Below are positions 5,805 to 20,684 of a DNA stretch of 28,107 bases, one piece after another (position 1 is the stretch's first letter; every line of letters starts with the position of its first letter). Under the pieces are notes generated by a model. That model had not been told where the DNA came from, ran no database searches, and worked only from the letters and a program-made list of their open reading frames with translations. Position numbers and translations under genes: made by a program. The stretch is from a virus, in IMG/VR virus record IMGVR_UViG_3300002231_000784, positions 2,120 to 30,226 of that record. The stretch is one strand, 5' to 3'.

Positions 5805-5824
5805 AATTTTTAAGTTAATTGATA

Positions 5825-5967
5825 ATAGTTAGTGTTGAGGCAGGGGCTTTCACCTACTCAATGTACATAATGGAGAGAACCAGTGGATAAATGAGAATTT
5901 GTACTTCATTCTCTACCAAAGCTCACATGTGAGATTTTTATTCCTATTCTCCACTCAACACTAACTG
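5825..5967. ncRNA. Candidate structured RNA / regulatory leader
   Basis: This 143-base interval has no convincing gene but has long complementary ends. Bases 5828-5839 pair perfectly with 5954-5965 (12 bp, extendable). Inside, 5871-5876 pairs with 5948-5953, stacked directly on the outer helix. Further in are a 12-base palindrome CTCACATGTGAG and a gagaat...attctc hairpin. On the - strand it would form the leader of the 67-aa gene. On the + strand it contains GCAGGGG...CACCTAC...TCA...TACA, which recurs at 22127-22243. No known riboswitch or ribozyme consensus was recognised. Strand and function are open. Confidence 0.5.
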
Positions 5968-6162
5968 CTACCAATTATTTTTTTTATGGAAAGGATTGCA
6001 TTTTGGCTTATTTTTACACACATGTTTTGTACCCTCATGCTGTGCATGATATGTCGTCTTATAATTATTCTTATCTAACTTCTCACCACAATTATCACAA
6101 TAATATTCTATTTTTTTAATTTTAATTATTCTGGTTTTACCAGTATCTATATATTTCTTCAT
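5968..6162 (-). CDS. Small basic zinc-finger protein (64 aa)
   Basis: Starts MKKYIDTGKTRIIKIKKIEY. It has CDNCGEKL (CxxC) followed by HAQHEGTKHVCKNKPKC, so Cys/His ligands could build a zinc finger. The protein is strongly basic, with ~17 Lys, which fits nucleic acid binding. It sits upstream of the structured element 5825-5967 in the leftward operon. I do not recognise a named family. Confidence 0.6.
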   Translation of the reverse strand: MKKYIDTGKTRIIKIKKIEYYCDNCGEKLDKNNYKTTYHAQHEGTKHVCKNKPKCNPFHKKNNW

Positions 6163-6888: not shown

Positions 6889-7557
6889 CTATTTTTTAAT
6901 CTTAATAGTCCTCCCCAACTCCTTGCATACCTCTTCCATAGTCAATTCTTCTGCCTTATTATCTATATCTAAGCCTGTAATCTCTTTAAAAATATCCTTA
7001 TCAAATTCTTTTAATCCTTTGATATATTCTAACATCTCTTCAGGAATATTAGCCCAATCCTCAGTAAAATCTTTAGTGGTTAATTGTTGTGTTTCTATGG
7101 CTGACCATTCACCAGCTTTCTTAAGTAACTCAAAGGCATTTGTTTGTTTCGGGTAAAAATTAAAATCTCTTATCTTGTTGTTTATTTCATTAAATTTTTC
7201 TTCTGTTATTTGTTTATTGAACAGCATATACTTTTCTCCAAATAAATCTTTAGAGAATAAGGATTTATAAACCGCTTTGCAATCTTTTATCCCGTAAGAA
7301 TAGTAACAGCCATCACAGCCACGACAGCCACGACAGTCATAACAGCCATCACAGCCATAACAGCCACGACAGCCATAACAGCCACGACAGCCACGACAGC
7401 CATCACAGCCATAACAGCCACAACAGCTATCACAGCCATCACAGCCACGACAGCCATCACAGCCATAACAGCCATCACAGTCATAACAGCTATCACAGCC
7501 ATCACAGCCACGACAGCCACGACAGTTATCTACATTGGTACAATTTGTATTAGGCAT
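6889..7557 (-). CDS. Cys-triplet-repeat protein with conserved-looking C-terminal domain
   Basis: A 222-residue protein. Residues 12-86 are 25 consecutive C-x-x triplets, mostly C-x-G, with Asp, Arg or Tyr in the middle. The C-terminal part (~90-222) is a normal globular sequence: LFGEKYMLFNKQITEEKFNE, later IPEEMLEYIKGLKEFDKDIF and KEITGLDID. From memory, this architecture (CxxC-like triplets, then an FNK...TEE domain) occurs in metagenomic and Patescibacteria-related proteins, sometimes mislabelled CaiB/BaiF. Their function is unknown. The regular Cys spacing of three could bind several metals or build a disulfide-rich or triangular solenoid. The start MPNTNCTN follows an AAAATTATG context. 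The repeat is likely unstable by slippage. Confidence 0.75.
   Translation of the reverse strand: MPNTNCTNVDNCRGCRGCDGCDSCYDCDGCYGCDGCRGCDGCDSCCGCYGCDGCRGCRGCYGCRGCYGCDGCYDCRGCRGCDGCYYSYGIKDCKAVYKSLFSKDLFGEKYMLFNKQITEEKFNEINNKIRDFNFYPKQTNAFELLKKAGEWSAIETQQLTTKDFTEDWANIPEEMLEYIKGLKEFDKDIFKEITGLDIDNKAEELTMEEVCKELGRTIKIKK
7300..7524 (-). repeat. 9-bp tandem repeat tract (TGT-NNT-GGC) inside the Cys-triplet gene
   Basis: About 25 units of nine bases encode C-x-G. The first and third codons are nearly constant (TGT, GGC), while the middle codon alternates among GAT, CGT and TAT with a few AGC or GAC neighbours. Because the unit is a multiple of three, gain or loss of units keeps the frame. Other frames of the tract are also open (AVVAVMAV-like peptides), which is a by-product of the repeat. 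Confidence 0.85.
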
Positions 7558-7561
7558 AATT

Positions 7562-7795
7562 TTATTGGTTAATTTGTAAAATCAGAAACTTAATCCTCTT
7601 AAATCTCTCCTGTATCTCCTGCTGAAAGTCCAATCTAACACTCATGCTTTCTGTAAGCACACACTCTTCCATCATCCTGAGGTATGAAAGTATACCAGAG
7701 ATTTCTCCCTCAATTTGTGTACGTTCAGATGGATGCTTATGCTCTGCCCCGTAGGGTTCACCCAGTAGTATTGCTTCTTCAATTAATTGTTTCAT
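7562..7795 (-). CDS. Hypothetical protein (77 aa)
   Basis: Start chosen at MKQLIEEAILLGEPYGAEHK (7795), in the A-rich context AAAAATATG. A nine-residue-longer frame from 7822 would begin inside the end of the upstream gene. The protein is helical and acidic, with the pattern HPSERTQIEGEISGILSYL and a C-terminal amphipathic helix (QEIQERFKRIKFLILQI). No metal or nucleotide motif is visible. Family unknown. Confidence 0.55.
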   Translation of the reverse strand: MKQLIEEAILLGEPYGAEHKHPSERTQIEGEISGILSYLRMMEECVLTESMSVRLDFQQEIQERFKRIKFLILQINQ

Positions 7796-7805
7796 ATTTT
7801 TAAAA

Positions 7806-8000
7806 TTAAAATATTTCAGCATTACTAGCTTCTATAATCTTTTGTTTATTTGCCTCTTTCTTGCCAGCTTCGTAAGCTTTATTGTAAACATACTCAATAT
7901 ATTCGTTAATTTCAAATATACTGCCGTCTTTAAGCATGACCATGCCAAATTCACTGAAGGTATTGCCATTCCATTCCTGTTTTATTTTTTCTATATTCAT
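7806..8000 (-). CDS. Hypothetical protein (64 aa)
   Basis: Starts MNIEKIKQEWNGNTFSEFGM. The core MLKDGSIFEINEYIEYVYNK is well-formed, with a Lys-rich helical tail. It lies just downstream of the Gly-Tyr-Ser repeat gene in the leftward operon. It resembles no family I can name. The - strand frame 7997-8272 that runs into this region is a shadow of the hexamer repeat. Confidence 0.5.
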   Translation of the reverse strand: MNIEKIKQEWNGNTFSEFGMVMLKDGSIFEINEYIEYVYNKAYEAGKKEANKQKIIEASNAEIF

Positions 8001-8030
8001 TGTAAAAATGTATCAGGTGCAGTTAAAATA

Positions 8031-8300
8031 TCAGCCAGAGCCAGAGCCATCGCCATCGCCAAAGCCAGAGCCAGAGCCATAGCCAGAGCCAGAACCATAG
8101 CCAGAGCCATAGCCAGAGCTATAGCCAGAGCTATCGCCATAGCCAGAGCCAGAGCTATCGCCATAGCCAGAGCCAGAGCCATAGCCAGAGCCAGAGCCAA
8201 AGCCATAGCCAAAGCCATAGCCATAGCCATAGCCAGAGCCATAGCCAGAGCCATAGCCATAGCCAGAGCCACGCATAAATTTAGTTGTTATTGTTCCCAT
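8031..8300 (-). CDS. Low-complexity [G/S]Y[G/S] repeat protein (89 aa)
   Basis: After a ten-residue lead (MGTITTKFMR), the remaining 79 residues contain only Gly, Ser, Tyr, Phe and Asp, with 14 Tyr and 3 Phe evenly spaced in GSGYG, GYGFG and DSSGY units. No fold or catalytic site is expected. The composition resembles prion-like G/S-Y-G/S domains such as that of FUS, which self-associate; that parallel is inference. The gene starts inside the end of the 125-aa gene (13-base overlap), which supports translation in this frame rather than in the alternative Ala-Met or Ala-Arg frames. Similar GYGS genes next to this same neighbour family occur in other phages as I recall. Confidence 0.6.
   Translation of the reverse strand: MGTITTKFMRGSGYGYGSGYGSGYGYGYGFGYGFGSGSGYGSGSGYGDSSGSGYGDSSGYSSGYGSGYGSGSGYGSGSGFGDGDGSGSG
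8034..8270 (-). repeat. Hexanucleotide repeat tract (GGCTMT) inside the GYS gene
   Basis: The tract is built of GGCTCT, GGCTAT and GGCGAT-type hexamers, so Ser/Tyr alternation depends on a single C/A change in codon position two. All six frames are nearly free of stops, which explains the long Ala-Met and Ala-Arg/Ile decoy frames on both strands. Unit gain or loss keeps frame, so copy number probably varies between relatives. Confidence 0.85.
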
Positions 8301-14888: not shown

Positions 14889-17659
14889 TATAATGGTATA
14901 GTTAATTGCTGTTTAATATTACAAGCTCTTTCAAGATTTAAAACAGCTTGATCGTAATATGATTTTTTAAGCTCTATCCCTATAAAATTCCTTCCACATT
15001 CAAGACTTACATATCCCTCTGAGCCTATGCCCATGAAAGGACTAAGAACAATATCGCCTGGGTTAGACCATAAATAAACAGCCCTACGGATAACATCAAG
15101 CTGTAATGGGCAAATATGCTTTTCATCTTTATCTTCCCTTGCACTCTTTTTTTGTAGTGTTTCACTAACATTTATATCCATCCAAACTGGACTAGCATAT
15201 TTTTGCCATATCTCAACAGGAAAATCATCTGCTGTATGTGTTATAGGCTCTTTATTTTCTCCTGGTTTTTTGAATGTGAGTAAATATTCAGCATATCCTT
15301 GTGCTGATCTCGCACTATCTTTTTTTACCTGCTTATGTAGCAATGTTAATGCTTTTGTTCGTTGCATTTGGACTACTGGGTCTTTCCAAATTGTAACTTC
15401 TGCATGAAATATAAATCCTGCTTTTTGGAATATCCTTATTAAATCCCCTCTAAAATCCTTCATTCCTATAAATCCGTCTTTAAACTTTTTATAACTTAAA
15501 TTCATACAATGCACACTCATATTTCTACCTTCTTTTAATGTTCTGAATAAATCTTTTGCCAGAAATTCAAAATGCTTATAAAACTCCTGGTCATTTTTAC
15601 TATTACCCATATCACGATCTGAATTTGAATAAGTATACAGATCTGAAAATGGGGGGCTATAAATCATAAAATCAATACTATTGTCTTTTATGCTTTTTAT
15701 TTTTTCTACGCTATCACCTAATATAGCAGTGAATCTATCATGTTTTTGTATATCTTCCATATAAATGTTTTTAGTTTGTTTAAAATTAAAAAATGTTTTA
15801 ACTGAATTAATAATCTGACTACTCATTTCCTCGTGCTTTTTTTCTTTTGATTCTATTGTTTCTATTGTAGATAATTCACGTTCATTTATAACAACATAAA
15901 TATCCACTTTTTCTTTCTGCCCGAATCGCCAGCAACGTCTTATTGATTGATAATATCCCTCATAACTGAATGATATACCGCAGAATATCATATTATGGCA
16001 ATTCTGTAGATTTAAACCAAATCCAAACATTTTTGCTTTACTGACTATATTCCTTTCCCCTGATTTATGACCGCAAATACAAAATTGCTCGTTCCAATAA
16101 TTCTGTATTATCATTAAAATTTCCGAGTCCAAAGTTACATTTAGAACATAGCAATCCTCTGATATTTCCTTTTGAGTGGCAATGATCGACGAATAATCTA
16201 TCTTTTCCATTTGATTTTCCACAAATTGCACATTTATTTTTTTGATTTTCGCACATTTTATTATATTCAGTAAGTGTAATTCCGTATTTTTTAAGTCTTT
16301 GATTAAGTTTAGTTTTAGGATTTCTTTTTGTAGTTTCTCTAGCTGATCTTTTACATTTCTCTCTAAATTCCGAATCAGTTTTATATCTTTCTCGTCGTTT
16401 AGCATTCCACACTTTAATTCTATATTCTGCACGCTGTTTTCTAAGTCGTTCTTTATTTTTGAGATTATATTTTTTATTATATTCTCTTCTGCGCTCTTTG
16501 TGTTTTTTCTCATATTCAATTGATTCTCGTAAGCGTTTATCACGATTTTTTCTATAATATTTTTGCCAATATGTGAGTGATTCTTCTTCCACCTTGCCAG
16601 TTTACCACGAAACAAATTTGAATTGCAAATACATTTATTTCCAATAAACCACTCTATTGCTTGCACCTTATATTCATCTGTGTCACTTCCACTTACATTT
16701 ATACAATTTGGTATAAGCTTTTCTAACAGATTCCCCTCATCATTAAATTGACACCAAATAAGCCATTGTTCATCTGGTTTTGACCTAATGAGTTCAGCGG
16801 TTTTTTTACATCTCTCTTCAAGTGATTCTTTTTGACTTTTTCTTACTTCACTCATTCCAGCTGCAGGCATAGAAAATAAAGTCTCTTTATTTTCTGATTT
16901 ATCCTCTAATATAACATTATGGACTGTTTTTTCGGGTAGTATAAACTTTGAGCCATCAAAACCTAGATCATCTGGAGTAGCAAGCATTACAGCCCACGAA
17001 CCTACAAATTGCCAGAACTCGGATTCAGCATGCTTTTTAAGACGCCAATCACCTACATTACTAGCGTCATTAATAAAGAACATAGATAACATTTCATTTC
17101 TACCCATTACATTTAAAAACTCGCAATGATTGCCAAGCTCGGTATAATCATTTGGGCTAGGTGTAGCTGTACATGCAAGTTTATATTTTGTTTTTTCAAA
17201 TTTTGCCAATAATGATTGTGTTGTTTTGCCTGTGAATGATTTTAAAATACTAGACTCATCAAGCACTATACCGTCAAATTGTGTACAGTCGAACTTATCC
17301 AGTTTTTCATAATTAGTAATGTTTATACCATTTATAATATCTTCATCTGTCTTTGCGACATTAACATTTACTCCAAATTTTTTACCTTCTCTTTTTGTTT
17401 GTAATGATACAGCAAGCGGGGCAACTATTAATATTTTACCCCCTGTTTTTTTATGAACCTGATTAGCCCATTCTAATTGCATAGGTGTTTTACCTAGTCC
17501 ACAATCTGCAAAAATGGCGGACTTGCCACGCTTTAAACTCCATTTGACTATTGCCTTTTGAAAATCAAAAAGCATTGGATTAAGCTCGGATTCATTAACA
17601 TCGAATCCTGCATTGGCTAGATTAAATTTTTTATTTTGTAAAAATTCTTTATAATTCAT
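14888..17659 (-). CDS. SNF2-like helicase fused to N4/N6 DNA methyltransferase, with an in-frame insert
   Basis: A 923-residue fusion. The N-terminal helicase shows Walker A DCGLGKT (52-58), DESS (134-137), TATPSPND (164-171), and, after the insert, MFGFGLNLQ and the arginine motif QSIRRCWRFGQ (571-581). The methyltransferase (from ~634) has the motif IV box DFMIYSPPF (663-671) and a C-terminal AdoMet motif PFMGIGSEG (874-882), a beta-class order. Such helicase-methylase fusions occur in phages and may unwind and methylate DNA against restriction. Residues ~343-526 are a Lys/Asn/Ile-rich insertion between helicase motifs that coincides with the nested nuclease gene. Removing it restores NKCICGHKSGERN. 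The start context is ATAACACCATG. Confidence 0.85.
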   Translation of the reverse strand: MNYKEFLQNKKFNLANAGFDVNESELNPMLFDFQKAIVKWSLKRGKSAIFADCGLGKTPMQLEWANQVHKKTGGKILIVAPLAVSLQTKREGKKFGVNVNVAKTDEDIINGINITNYEKLDKFDCTQFDGIVLDESSILKSFTGKTTQSLLAKFEKTKYKLACTATPSPNDYTELGNHCEFLNVMGRNEMLSMFFINDASNVGDWRLKKHAESEFWQFVGSWAVMLATPDDLGFDGSKFILPEKTVHNVILEDKSENKETLFSMPAAGMSEVRKSQKESLEERCKKTAELIRSKPDEQWLIWCQFNDEGNLLEKLIPNCINVSGSDTDEYKVQAIEWFIGNKCICNSNLFRGKLARWKKNHSHIGKNIIEKIVINAYENQLNMRKNTKSAEENIIKNIISKIKNDLENSVQNIELKCGMLNDEKDIKLIRNLERNVKDQLEKLQKEILKLNLIKDLKNTELHLLNIIKCAKIKKINVQFVENQMEKIDYSSIIATQKEISEDCYVLNVTLDSEILMIIQNYWNEQFCICGHKSGERNIVSKAKMFGFGLNLQNCHNMIFCGISFSYEGYYQSIRRCWRFGQKEKVDIYVVINERELSTIETIESKEKKHEEMSSQIINSVKTFFNFKQTKNIYMEDIQKHDRFTAILGDSVEKIKSIKDNSIDFMIYSPPFSDLYTYSNSDRDMGNSKNDQEFYKHFEFLAKDLFRTLKEGRNMSVHCMNLSYKKFKDGFIGMKDFRGDLIRIFQKAGFIFHAEVTIWKDPVVQMQRTKALTLLHKQVKKDSARSAQGYAEYLLTFKKPGENKEPITHTADDFPVEIWQKYASPVWMDINVSETLQKKSAREDKDEKHICPLQLDVIRRAVYLWSNPGDIVLSPFMGIGSEGYVSLECGRNFIGIELKKSYYDQAVLNLERACNIKQQLTIPL
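16065..16592 (-). CDS. Endonuclease VII-like HNH protein nested in the helicase gene
   Basis: A 175-residue frame, GTG start, inside the helicase-methylase gene in another frame. The C-terminal domain matches recombination endonuclease VII: YGITLTEYNKMCENQKNKC, zinc Cys pairs C121/C124 and C149/C152, VDHCH (135-139) as the metal and catalytic His-Asp site, and LLCSKCNFGLGNFNDN. The N-terminal ~100 residues are an Arg/Lys-rich helix often found in mobile members. The family cuts DNA branches or acts as homing nuclease. It fills nearly the whole 552-base insert, leaving no room for an intron core. Translation must start internally. Confidence 0.8.
   Translation of the reverse strand: MEEESLTYWQKYYRKNRDKRLRESIEYEKKHKERRREYNKKYNLKNKERLRKQRAEYRIKVWNAKRRERYKTDSEFREKCKRSARETTKRNPKTKLNQRLKKYGITLTEYNKMCENQKNKCAICGKSNGKDRLFVDHCHSKGNIRGLLCSKCNFGLGNFNDNTELLERAILYLRS
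16073..16633 (-). mobile_element. Insertion carrying the endonuclease VII-like gene, bounded by a 9-bp direct repeat
   Basis: On the - strand TGTATTTGC occurs at 16633-16625 and again at 16081-16073. The copies are 552 bases apart, exactly 184 codons. Deleting one repeat plus the interior rejoins the helicase frame without gap (GGAAATAAA-TGTATTTGC-GGTCATAAA). The insert has 528 coding bases for the nuclease and few others. Duplication could be a target-site duplication or a microhomology joint. The helicase frame is open throughout. Confidence 0.7.
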
Positions 17660-17849: not shown

Positions 17850-18347
17850 ATGAAAAGAAATAAAAAAGGACAATTCATCAAAGGCTCTAATGGTAATACA
17901 TTTGAGGGATTCGGAGTATGGTATGACAAAAAAGGGTATCCTAAAATATGTATTAATGGGAAAGATATAAATATTCATGTATATGTTTGGGAACGTATTA
18001 ATGGTACAAAACCTAAAGGATACGAAATCCATCACAAAGACTTTAATAAAAAAAATTATAATTTAGATAATTTAGAACTTCTCACAAATTCAGATCATCA
18101 AAAAATCCATGCTGGATGGGTTAGAGAAAATGGAGTTTGGATATTAAAACCATGCAAGGATTGTGAACAAAAACTGCCACTAGACAAATTTTATCAACGA
18201 AAAGGTCTAACACCTTCCAATAGGTGTATAGAATGTTCTAGTTTATATTTTAAAAAAAGAAATACTAGTGAATATAAAATAAAGAGAAAAAAGTACATGA
18301 AGGAATATTATAAACTTAACAAATCCAAATGGTTGACAAAAGGTTAA
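17850..18347 (+). CDS. HNH homing-type endonuclease with C-terminal zinc ribbon
   Basis: A 165-residue protein: N-terminal NUMOD-like beta domain (GQFIKGSN; KKGYPKICINGKDINIHVYV), an HNH core GYEIHHKDFNKKNYNLDNLE with His61/His62 and Asn positions, then HQKIHAGW. A zinc ribbon follows (CKDC at 102-105; CIEC at 126-129) before a basic tail. This layout is that of free-standing phage HNH homing nucleases. The gene sits directly upstream of, and overlaps by 19 bases, the C5 methyltransferase. It probably entered there as a mobile gene. Confidence 0.82.
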   Translation: MKRNKKGQFIKGSNGNTFEGFGVWYDKKGYPKICINGKDINIHVYVWERINGTKPKGYEIHHKDFNKKNYNLDNLELLTNSDHQKIHAGWVRENGVWILKPCKDCEQKLPLDKFYQRKGLTPSNRCIECSSLYFKKRNTSEYKIKRKKYMKEYYKLNKSKWLTKG

Positions 18348-18969
18348 AAGTATTGAATTGCTACTGCGGAGTTGGAGGCAATAGAAAACTTTGGAATAAT
18401 GTTGAAGTTACAGCTATTGAATTTAATCCACAAATAGCAGCTATTTATCAAGACTTCTTTCCAGATGATGAAGTTATTGTAGCGGACGCTCATCAATATC
18501 TTTTAGATCATTTTAAAGAGTTTGACTTTATTTGGTCAAGTCCTCCTTGTCCGACTCATTCAGACATTAGAAGATGTGGAGTACAAAAAGGGCAATATGA
18601 AGCAAAATATCCGGATATGAAATTGTACGAGGAAATAATACTATTACAACATTTTGCACCAAAAGAATGTAAATGGATAGTGGAAAATGTAAAACCTTAT
18701 TATAAACCTTTAATCCCCTGCAAAGGAATTAGAAAGGCATTTGTTCTGGACTAATTTTGATATCACATACAGAAAAATACATGACGACAGAAGGCATAGT
18801 GATATACATGGCTCTAAGCCTGTTTATGGATTTGATCTTAAAAGTTATACAGGTATTGATAAGCGTAAAACTCTACCGGAATATGGTAAATCCGGAACTC
18901 GGATTATATATATTTAATGAAGCTTTTAATAAGCCTACTAAACAATTTGAACAACAAACATTATTATAA
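18329..18969 (+). pseudogene. DNA cytosine-5 methyltransferase broken by two +1 frameshifts
   Basis: The first 130 codons encode a C5 methyltransferase: AdoMet motif GVGGN (14-18), catalytic WSSPPCPTHS with Cys74, and ENV (119-121). The reading frame is then lost. Motif-like sequence continues in the next frame (a KELERHLFWTNFDI-like stretch, then GSKPVYGFDLKSYTGIDKRK). It shifts again to RNMVNPELGLYIFNEAFN up to 18969. The breaks fit one extra C in CCCC at 18715-18718 and one extra C at 18876-18877. With both removed, a single protein of about 213 residues results, typical for short phage C5 enzymes. Either an inactivated gene or two sequencing errors. Confidence 0.75.
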
Positions 18970-19787: not shown

Positions 19788-19816
19788 TTTACTTTTCAAA
19801 ATAAAAGGAGTAAAAT
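19788..19816 (+). promoter_or_regulatory. Promoter for the replication initiator
   Basis: TTTACT (19788-19793), 17 bases, TAAAAT (19811-19816). Predicted start near 19823, so the transcript leader (about 118 bases) would begin about ten bases before the interlocked inverted repeats at 19834-19938 and consist mostly of them. Confidence 0.5.
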
Positions 19817-19833
19817 AGATAATACTAAATACT

Positions 19834-19938
19834 TACCCCGCAAAAAATGTTTAAATTAGATTATTACAATACCGCCATTACTAGCTCTTTGCGGGGTATT
19901 TTTGGTAATGGCGGTATTGAAGTAATTTAACCCCGCAA
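19834..19938 (+). promoter_or_regulatory. Interlocked inverted repeats (A-B-A'-B'-A'') before the replication initiator
   Basis: A, TACCCCGCAAA (19834-19844), is complementary over 11 bases to A', TTTGCGGGGTA (19888-19898). B, CAATACCGCCATTAC (19867-19881), is complementary over 15 bases to B', GTAATGGCGGTATTG (19905-19919). A third A copy, ACCCCGCAA (A'', 19930-19938), ends two bases before the ATG at 19941. The order A-B-A'-B' cannot form two nested hairpins; it is a pseudoknot order, and A and A'' compete for A'. The elements are GC-rich within very AT-rich DNA. As RNA this could gate translation of the initiator; as DNA it could be a set of operator or replication sites. Confidence 0.7.
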
Positions 19939-19940
19939 TA

Positions 19941-20684
19941 ATGGCTAATCCGCAAACAGAAAACGGGTACACAATAATTGCTAATGAAATATTGGAGGCT
20001 TTAACAAAAGCTAGTTTAAATGGTACTGAATTTAAGGTTATTTTATGTATAATAAGGAAGACATATGGATTCAAGAAAAAAGAGGATAGTATATCGCTTA
20101 CGCAATTTGTCAAATTTACCAGAAGTTCATTACAAGCTATATGCAAAACACTAAACAAATTGATACTAAACAAATTGATACTAGTTAATAAAGGTGGTTA
20201 TATTAACAAATATCGCTTTAATAAGAGATATAACGAATGGATACTAAACAAACGTATACTAAACAGTTGTTTACTAAACAAACGTTTAAAAACTACTAAA
20301 CAAATGGATAATCAGATACTAAACAGTTGTTTAGATACAAAAGAAACTATTACAAAAGAAACTATTACAAAAGAAAGTGGTAAATCCAAAAAACAAAAAA
20401 TTTTTTCAAAAGAAGTTCAGAAATTATCAGACTTTCTTTATGAGTTAATTAAACAGAATGACCCTAAGTTTAATAAAAATGCTAGAAAGTGGGATGATGC
20501 TATGGATAAGATCATAAGGATTGATAAGAGAGATTATAACGAAGTTGCAAAGATTATACAATTCGCACAAGAGAGTGATTTTTGGAAGGGTAATATTTTA
20601 TGTGGTGCAAAGCTTAGAGAAAAATATACTCAATTACTATTACAGGCAAAAGAAAAAGGCGGAAACGCAGTATTTATTTCATAA
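19941..20684 (+). CDS. Replication initiator, phage replication protein O N-terminal type
   Basis: A 247-residue protein. Residues 1-85 match the lambda O-type N-terminal domain: MANPQTENGYTIIANEILEA, VILCIIRKTYGFKKKEDSIS, and LTQFVKFTRSSLQAICKTLN as the winged-helix recognition part. This domain binds origin iterons. The middle (~75-150) is a low-complexity stretch (LNK-ILN-type repeats, then TKETITKES) whose DNA carries iteron-like repeats. The C terminus (~155-247) is Lys-rich and helical, and would contact a host or phage helicase loader or helicase. No helicase gene is seen here, so the host DnaB-type helicase may be recruited. Confidence 0.85.
   Translation: MANPQTENGYTIIANEILEALTKASLNGTEFKVILCIIRKTYGFKKKEDSISLTQFVKFTRSSLQAICKTLNKLILNKLILVNKGGYINKYRFNKRYNEWILNKRILNSCLLNKRLKTTKQMDNQILNSCLDTKETITKETITKESGKSKKQKIFSKEVQKLSDFLYELIKQNDPKFNKNARKWDDAMDKIIRIDKRDYNEVAKIIQFAQESDFWKGNILCGAKLREKYTQLLLQAKEKGGNAVFIS
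20150..20376 (+). repeat. Iteron-like repeats and AT-rich tract inside the initiator gene (candidate origin)
   Basis: ACTAAACA occurs at 20150, 20165, 20243, 20258, 20273, 20295 and 20318; most copies extend to TACTAAACAAA or TACTAAACAGTTGTTTA. Several are 15 bases apart. Two copies (20258 and 20318) belong to near-palindromes of the form TAAACA-GT-TGTTTA. Right after them, 20339-20376 is an AT-rich 15-bp tandem unit (AAAAGAAACTATTAC, two and a half copies). Iterons followed by an AT-rich region inside the O gene is the arrangement of the lambda origin. Function is inferred from that resemblance. Confidence 0.65.

Follow-up and report, generated by a model that had tools for sequence, protein, structure and literature searches.

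The replication-initiator operon of an uncultivated virus is led by a short element that we read, with a probability of about 0.6, as a sense-strand, cis-acting switch or attenuator whose arms are ordered as in a pseudoknot, a reading drawn from sequence comparison. The element was found in a window of 28,107 nt, by which we mean the whole stretch of DNA that was analysed, and which comes from a 34.8-kb uncultivated virus record (IMGVR_UViG_3300002231_000784). Dozens of distantly related phages show the same layout in different letters, and this points to a little-known RNA switch for setting the amount of initiator protein. The initial annotation of this DNA had already proposed an RNA switch acting on the initiator; interlocked arms, compensatory changes and sense promoters support that idea, and from them we infer the mechanism set out below.

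Five elements in the order A-B-A′-B′-A′′ occupy the 105 nt immediately 5′ of the ATG of the initiator (O) gene (Table 1). A and A′ form a perfect 11-bp complement, and the core of B:B′ comprises 15 bp within extended 26-nt arms of 88% complementarity, where G-T accounts for two of the three mismatches. A′′ provides a 9-bp complement to A′ and has its 3′ end two bases before the ATG at 19941. The interlocked order and the positions of its arms, as they had been described initially, are confirmed: the pseudoknot score is 38.7, whereas 3000 dinucleotide shuffles average 15.9 and go no higher than 26.4, and the top unrelated 150-nt stretch on the plus strand of the 28-kb window scores 24.4. The view that A and A′′ compete for A′ likewise agrees with the complementarity of both to the same segment. 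Exactly three copies of ACCCCGCAA are present in the whole window, all of them in this leader, and a nested fold of the leader alone gives z = −4.5. That the leader is nearly all structure is also borne out, the promoters of the family lying just 5′ of A. One element of the original description carries no meaning, namely the recurrence of part of the motif (CCGCAAA) in codons 3-6. The match is explained by conserved Pro-Gln codons (MANPQ); the Pro codon varies freely among CCA, CCT, CCG and CCC in the relatives, and CCGCAA or CCGCAG is found in 42 of 228.

Table 1. Leader elements, promoter candidates and initiator gene in the window
Feature	Position	Strand	Basis or remark
Candidate sigma70 promoter(s), TTTACT-17-TAAAAT and TTCAAA-17-GATAAT	19788-19823	+	Weak, the window offering no more than a match to the consensus; strong promoters at this place across the family
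A, TACCCCGCAAA, 5′ arm near the predicted transcript start	19834-19844	+	Sequence, repeats
B arm, core CAATACCGCCATTAC at 19867-19881	19856-19881	+	Repeats, fold
A′, TTTGCGGGGTA, in the loop of B:B′, followed by TTTTTGG	19888-19898	+	Repeats
B′ arm, core GTAATGGCGGTATTG at 19905-19919, pairs with B and crosses A:A′	19905-19930	+	
A′′, ACCCCGCAA, second partner of A′	19930-19938	+	Repeats
Replication initiator, Phage_rep_O, MANPQTENG type	19941-20684	+	PF04492, E = 3.8e-23; phrog_277, E = 4e-34
Seven iteron-like repeats ACTAAACA inside the O gene, lambda-type origin	20150-20325	+	

The origins of lambda-type phages are usually placed at repeats within the O gene. The gene behind the leader belongs with Phage_rep_O by both its PF04492 domain (82.3 bits against a cut-off of 28.7) and its in-gene repeats. 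Repeated 8-mers are found within O in 40 of the 42 loci with an interlocked leader (see below); they differ from phage to phage and are read through as repeated peptides. No integrase was found in the virus record. Other parts of the window hold features of separate interest. A DNA methyltransferase-like ORF (phrog_363; 18329-18760) has an early end at 18754 and seems to continue in the adjacent frame, a break attributable to mutation or to assembly. On the minus strand, a 175-aa endonuclease VII/HNH-like ORF (16065-16592) lies within a 923-aa helicase-methylase ORF of the same strand in another frame, and the longer ORF remains open across it. Low-complexity tandem-repeat ORFs that are rich in Cys-Gly and carry periodic Gly-Tyr/Ala-Met repeats occupy 6889-8300 (minus strand), and a 24-nt inverted repeat (88%) with arms 114 nt apart and a palindrome between them is situated outside the listed ORFs at 5816-5977.

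Scans of IMG/VR and GTDB genomes yielded approximately 375 loci that carry an O gene; among these are 224 distinct leaders, each of which was tested against its own shuffles with a crossing-helix scanner that uses stacking energies without pseudoknot loop terms. The interlocked A-B-A′-B′ order stands directly 5′ of O in about 42 of the 224, a figure that includes about seven leaders added by hand where the scanner had picked other arms, membership at the lower end being partly by eye. An automatic filter (z of at least 3, plus geometry) passes 35 leaders, and the right tail of the scanner scores is clearly separate, with 39 leaders above z = 3 and 17 above z = 6. The O leader is the top interlocked stretch of its own locus in 32 of the 42 member loci, and scores of at least 30 are reached by 21% of O-leader windows versus 0.04% of the background. 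In leader L005, whose initiator is 42% identical, the same five elements recur with unrelated letters (AACTCGCTAG, TTATATCCGTCAACTA, CTAGCGAGTT, TAGTTGACGGATATAA and again AACTCGCTAG), and the last of them, A′′, ends 4 nt 5′ of the ATG. Except for T-runs, no sequence motif or k-mer is shared among the interlocked leaders.

With regard to loci in which O directly follows another gene, the element is usually missing from its position before O, and in 12 such loci it is present upstream at the head of the operon. Overall, 13 further loci have an interlocked leader further upstream of O. In most of them it is followed by a short gene, for an HNH nuclease, a zinc-finger or ribbon-helix-helix protein or an unknown product, which runs up to the O start or slightly past it, so that the upstream leader heads the replication operon. 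The exceptions are L059, which precedes O itself, L061, to which the script assigned no gene, and L007 and L040, which have a larger gap. The HNH endonuclease genes between leader and O in L253, L035 and L042 overlap the O start by 8-44 nt, as if inserted behind the leader. At L222, a second interlocked leader with a T-run (positions 1000-1100) precedes the O leader by about 0.9 kb; the 22-codon ORF that comes after it (MKNWSIEKAFNAPIGK...) may be the decayed start of a gene. A pattern scan for further leaders like L028 and L100 returned the known locus, two unrelated coding matches and no more.

The interlocked leader is inherited with the O lineage. On a tree of O proteins that is weakly resolved at depth, the trait clusters, requiring 24 changes compared to 45.7 in shuffles (none of 500 as low), and it is absent from a group of 57 rows composed mostly of proteobacterial and Bacillota prophages. 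In each of the annotated cultured phages with O homologues that were inspected (Caldibacillus CBP1, Halomonas YPHTV-1, Aeromonas phiARM81mr and a Flyfo siphovirus) O lies directly behind another gene, and a laboratory system would therefore need synthetic leaders.

The original proposal had been staked on pairing being kept in relatives, and pairing is kept. Formal covariation is limited to two alignable pairs of leaders with 48 base pairs in total: the L028/L100 alignment has four two-sided compensatory changes and 19 unchanged pairs, and the L236/L309 alignment has four two-sided changes, two one-sided changes and 19 unchanged pairs. Thus eight changes are two-sided and none of the 48 pairs is broken, and in many distant relatives the topology persists although the letters have changed. 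When helices were chosen on Watson-Crick pairs only, their interruptions comprised 24 G-U, 5 A-C and 11 other mismatches. Weak control leaders also favour G-U over A-C (29:16), so the strand test alone gives moderate support for a sense RNA. Promoters point the same way. Sigma70-like sense promoters 5′ of A score on average 11.19 versus 8.35 in shuffles across the 42 leaders, many resembling TTGACA-17-TATAAT, with a median of 15 nt from the end of the −10 box to A; the independent set of 13 upstream leaders gives 11.64 versus 8.15. It follows that the leader RNA would start at or near A and consist almost wholly of this structure. The promoter that had been placed just upstream of the leader is accordingly strong as a feature of the family, and support for it within the window is weak: it matches 9 of 12 consensus bases and scores 10.4, the shuffles averaging 8.8. 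Together, these comparisons support well both the fold and the sense strand of the predicted leader RNA. Within 150 nt upstream of A, the DnaA-box-like sequence TTATCCAC is found in nine of the 42 leaders (L034, L155, L247, L309, L004, L033, L213, L032 and L100), where its density is about 18-fold that of the remainder of the loci; it is absent from positions −250 to −100 of 182 non-interlocked O genes.

In most members a T-run comes after the GC core of B′: T is found at the first four positions in 74, 63, 77 and 66% and A in 6-26%. With this T-run, B:B′ in these leaders probably acts as an intrinsic terminator, placed between promoter and first gene, and the T-run favours attenuation of transcription. 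The window differs: there is no T-run after B′ and a simple scan detects no terminator, the T-run following A′ instead. L005 also has no T-run after B′. The third arm A′′, which is missing from most members, is present in these same two leaders, and a nested calculation for the window finds the AUG region nearly fully paired in the A′:A′′ conformer, unlike in A:A′ or B:B′. The window and L005 represent a sub-variant that has no T-run after B′ and has an A′′ by which the start codon could be hidden. The original suggestion that A′′ gates the start codon fits these two leaders and does not extend to the family, in which most members have a T-run after B′. In L246, L268 and L261, an extra terminator-like hairpin with a T-run (for example, CCGAC...GTCGGTTTTTT) is placed between A and B within the A:A′ loop, which suggests two termination points per leader.

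The switch that we propose would operate by co-transcriptional competition, termination and feedback in trans. Transcription from the promoter just 5′ of A would yield a leader RNA with A at its 5′ end. B:B′ is predicted to be a strong hairpin that carries A′ in its loop, and A may pair with A′ such that the two helices interlock. A:A′ would be the first to form, once A′ exits the polymerase, and B would be kept in the A:A′ loop, so that formation of the B:B′ terminator is delayed or prevented. If A is occupied, B would be freed, B:B′ would form and transcription would stop before O. The occupant of A is most plausibly the leader RNA itself, accumulating with rising numbers of phage copies; the letters diverge freely with pairing kept, which favours self-recognition by the leader RNA. 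In the window and L005, A′′ would replace A as the partner of A′, and the A′:A′′ helix would cover the start codon. With no T-run after B′ and an A′′ able to pair with A′, the competition is expected to act mainly on translation in these two leaders.

A translational switch throughout the family, in which the helices gate ribosome access to the O start, A′:A′′ (or B:B′) closing it and A:A′ opening it with no termination of transcription, would account for the two leaders in which A′′ ends 2-4 nt 5′ of the ATG, the A′:A′′ conformer buries the AUG and the T-run after B′ is missing. As an explanation of the whole family it is unlikely, since most members are without A′′ and the bias 3′ of B′ is towards T rather than A, which indicates termination. 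Moreover, an SD-like purine-rich sequence is free 3′ of B′ in L253, L189, L081 and L007, and the first gene in such leaders is often not O, making direct closing of the O start impossible there. The helices might instead belong to the DNA and form a cruciform or a set of protein-binding boxes; the initiator, or some other protein, would occupy them in autoregulation or as part of origin function. O-type initiators do bind repeats, perfect inverted repeats adjoin the initiator gene, and DnaA boxes are enriched upstream of the promoters in nine of 42 leaders, but the polarity of the T-runs, the sense promoters and the preference for G-U over A-C on the sense strand all speak for RNA, and the arm letters differ wholly between relatives whose initiators are 40-60% identical. 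The arms are also unlike the in-gene iterons (65 observed versus 48.8 expected), so that the initiator-binding boxes offered as one option at the outset are disfavoured and a DNA-level role is very improbable.

The remaining alternatives are modelled on known systems. The CI RNA of P4 binds by complementarity to two segments, seqA on its upstream side and seqC on its downstream side, and transcription then ends ahead of the replication genes (PMC4825925; PMC10111431). By analogy, processing or termination could turn the B:B′ hairpin with A′ into a stable RNA; acting in trans on new transcripts, this RNA would base-pair with their A (the counterpart of seqA) and A′′ (the counterpart of seqC), so that transcription of the replication genes stops and superinfection immunity results. 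A-A′-A′′ in the window has the P4 order (seqA, CI RNA, seqC), a hairpin-borne segment being complementary to one upstream and one downstream segment, as it is in L005 and not in most members, and letters that diverge rapidly while the pairing persists are in keeping with a specificity determinant. The leader further resembles P4 CI RNA, C4 and isrK in being the sense-strand leader of a replication operon and in its presumed action on premature termination of transcription. In contrast to P4, the element measures about 100 nt in all and stops where the gene begins, the initiator is of the O-type theta class rather than P4 alpha, and A′′ is rare; lysogeny (no integrase was found in the record) and a role in immunity are putative. 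Rfam searches at the gathering threshold (the window and eight relatives) and with E up to 10 over the leader returned nothing but a tRNA in L008; C4 and isrK, the families through which relatives of P4 CI/seqA are recognized, gave no match. A P4-like immunity RNA is a possibility that we regard as doubtful. For pT181, a pre-emptor blocks the terminator before repC and an antisense RNA favours the terminator (PMC5703833). The leader is like pT181 repC and pIP501 repR in that a terminator-like hairpin lies directly before the initiator and an upstream segment would pre-empt it, so position and purpose would match a counter-transcript from the opposite strand that binds the leader and induces the terminator. 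Antisense promoters over the 42 leaders show no excess over shuffles (9.20 versus 9.29), and A:A′ and B:B′ are formed from separate strands and would exclude each other by interlocking, whereas the pT181 pre-emptor scheme shares one strand. The antisense-controlled leader that had been among the initial options is for these reasons improbable. The element would work like the P4 and pT181 systems and is not filed as a member of either.

Two more distant comparisons are informative. The repZ leader of IncI-alpha/IncB plasmids forms a pseudoknot that activates translation and requires translation of a leader peptide and an antisense RNA. The window is similar in that a hairpin-loop segment (A′ in B:B′) can pair with a segment (A′′) 2 nt before the initiator ATG, but the AUG would here be hidden by A′:A′′, and there is no sign of a leader peptide or of an antisense RNA. 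The put antitermination RNAs of HK022 are structured, lie right after an early phage promoter and keep their sequence through contact with RNA polymerase; the present leaders are structured RNAs behind a promoter as well and, unlike put, share no k-mer beyond the T-runs. Other readings were set aside. An HDV-like ribozyme, which has the same A-B-hairpin-A′-B′ order, was rejected by judgement, with L3 at 0-13 nt leaving no room for P4/J4-2 and with no conserved sequence. Open frames in L028 and L100, read by eye, give unrelated peptides and hence no leader peptide. A ligand-pocket riboswitch was rejected on finding no conserved motif beyond T-runs; with neither a shared motif nor an Rfam match, a ligand pocket or a conserved protein site is unlikely.

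In plasmids and in P4-type satellites, replication initiators are known to be controlled by RNA. A literature search found the P4, IsrK and pT181 systems and no description of this element, nor any for lambda-O-type initiators at large, and no Rfam family covers the leader. The layout recurs among about 55 unrelated leaders that have no sequence in common, and standard covariance searches are therefore blind to it. It is conceivable, if speculative, that leader RNAs which regulate themselves form a widespread, sequence-free family among uncultivated phages, in which the terminated product of a leader pairs with A and shuts off further copies; this would be a protein-free device for both copy number and immunity, its letters free because only self-recognition matters. 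If the proposed mechanism holds, many uncultivated phages would set their level of replication, and possibly immunity, by an RNA that recognizes itself, and the interlocked leaders would amount to a natural library for asking how topology alone, without shared bases, controls the termination of transcription.
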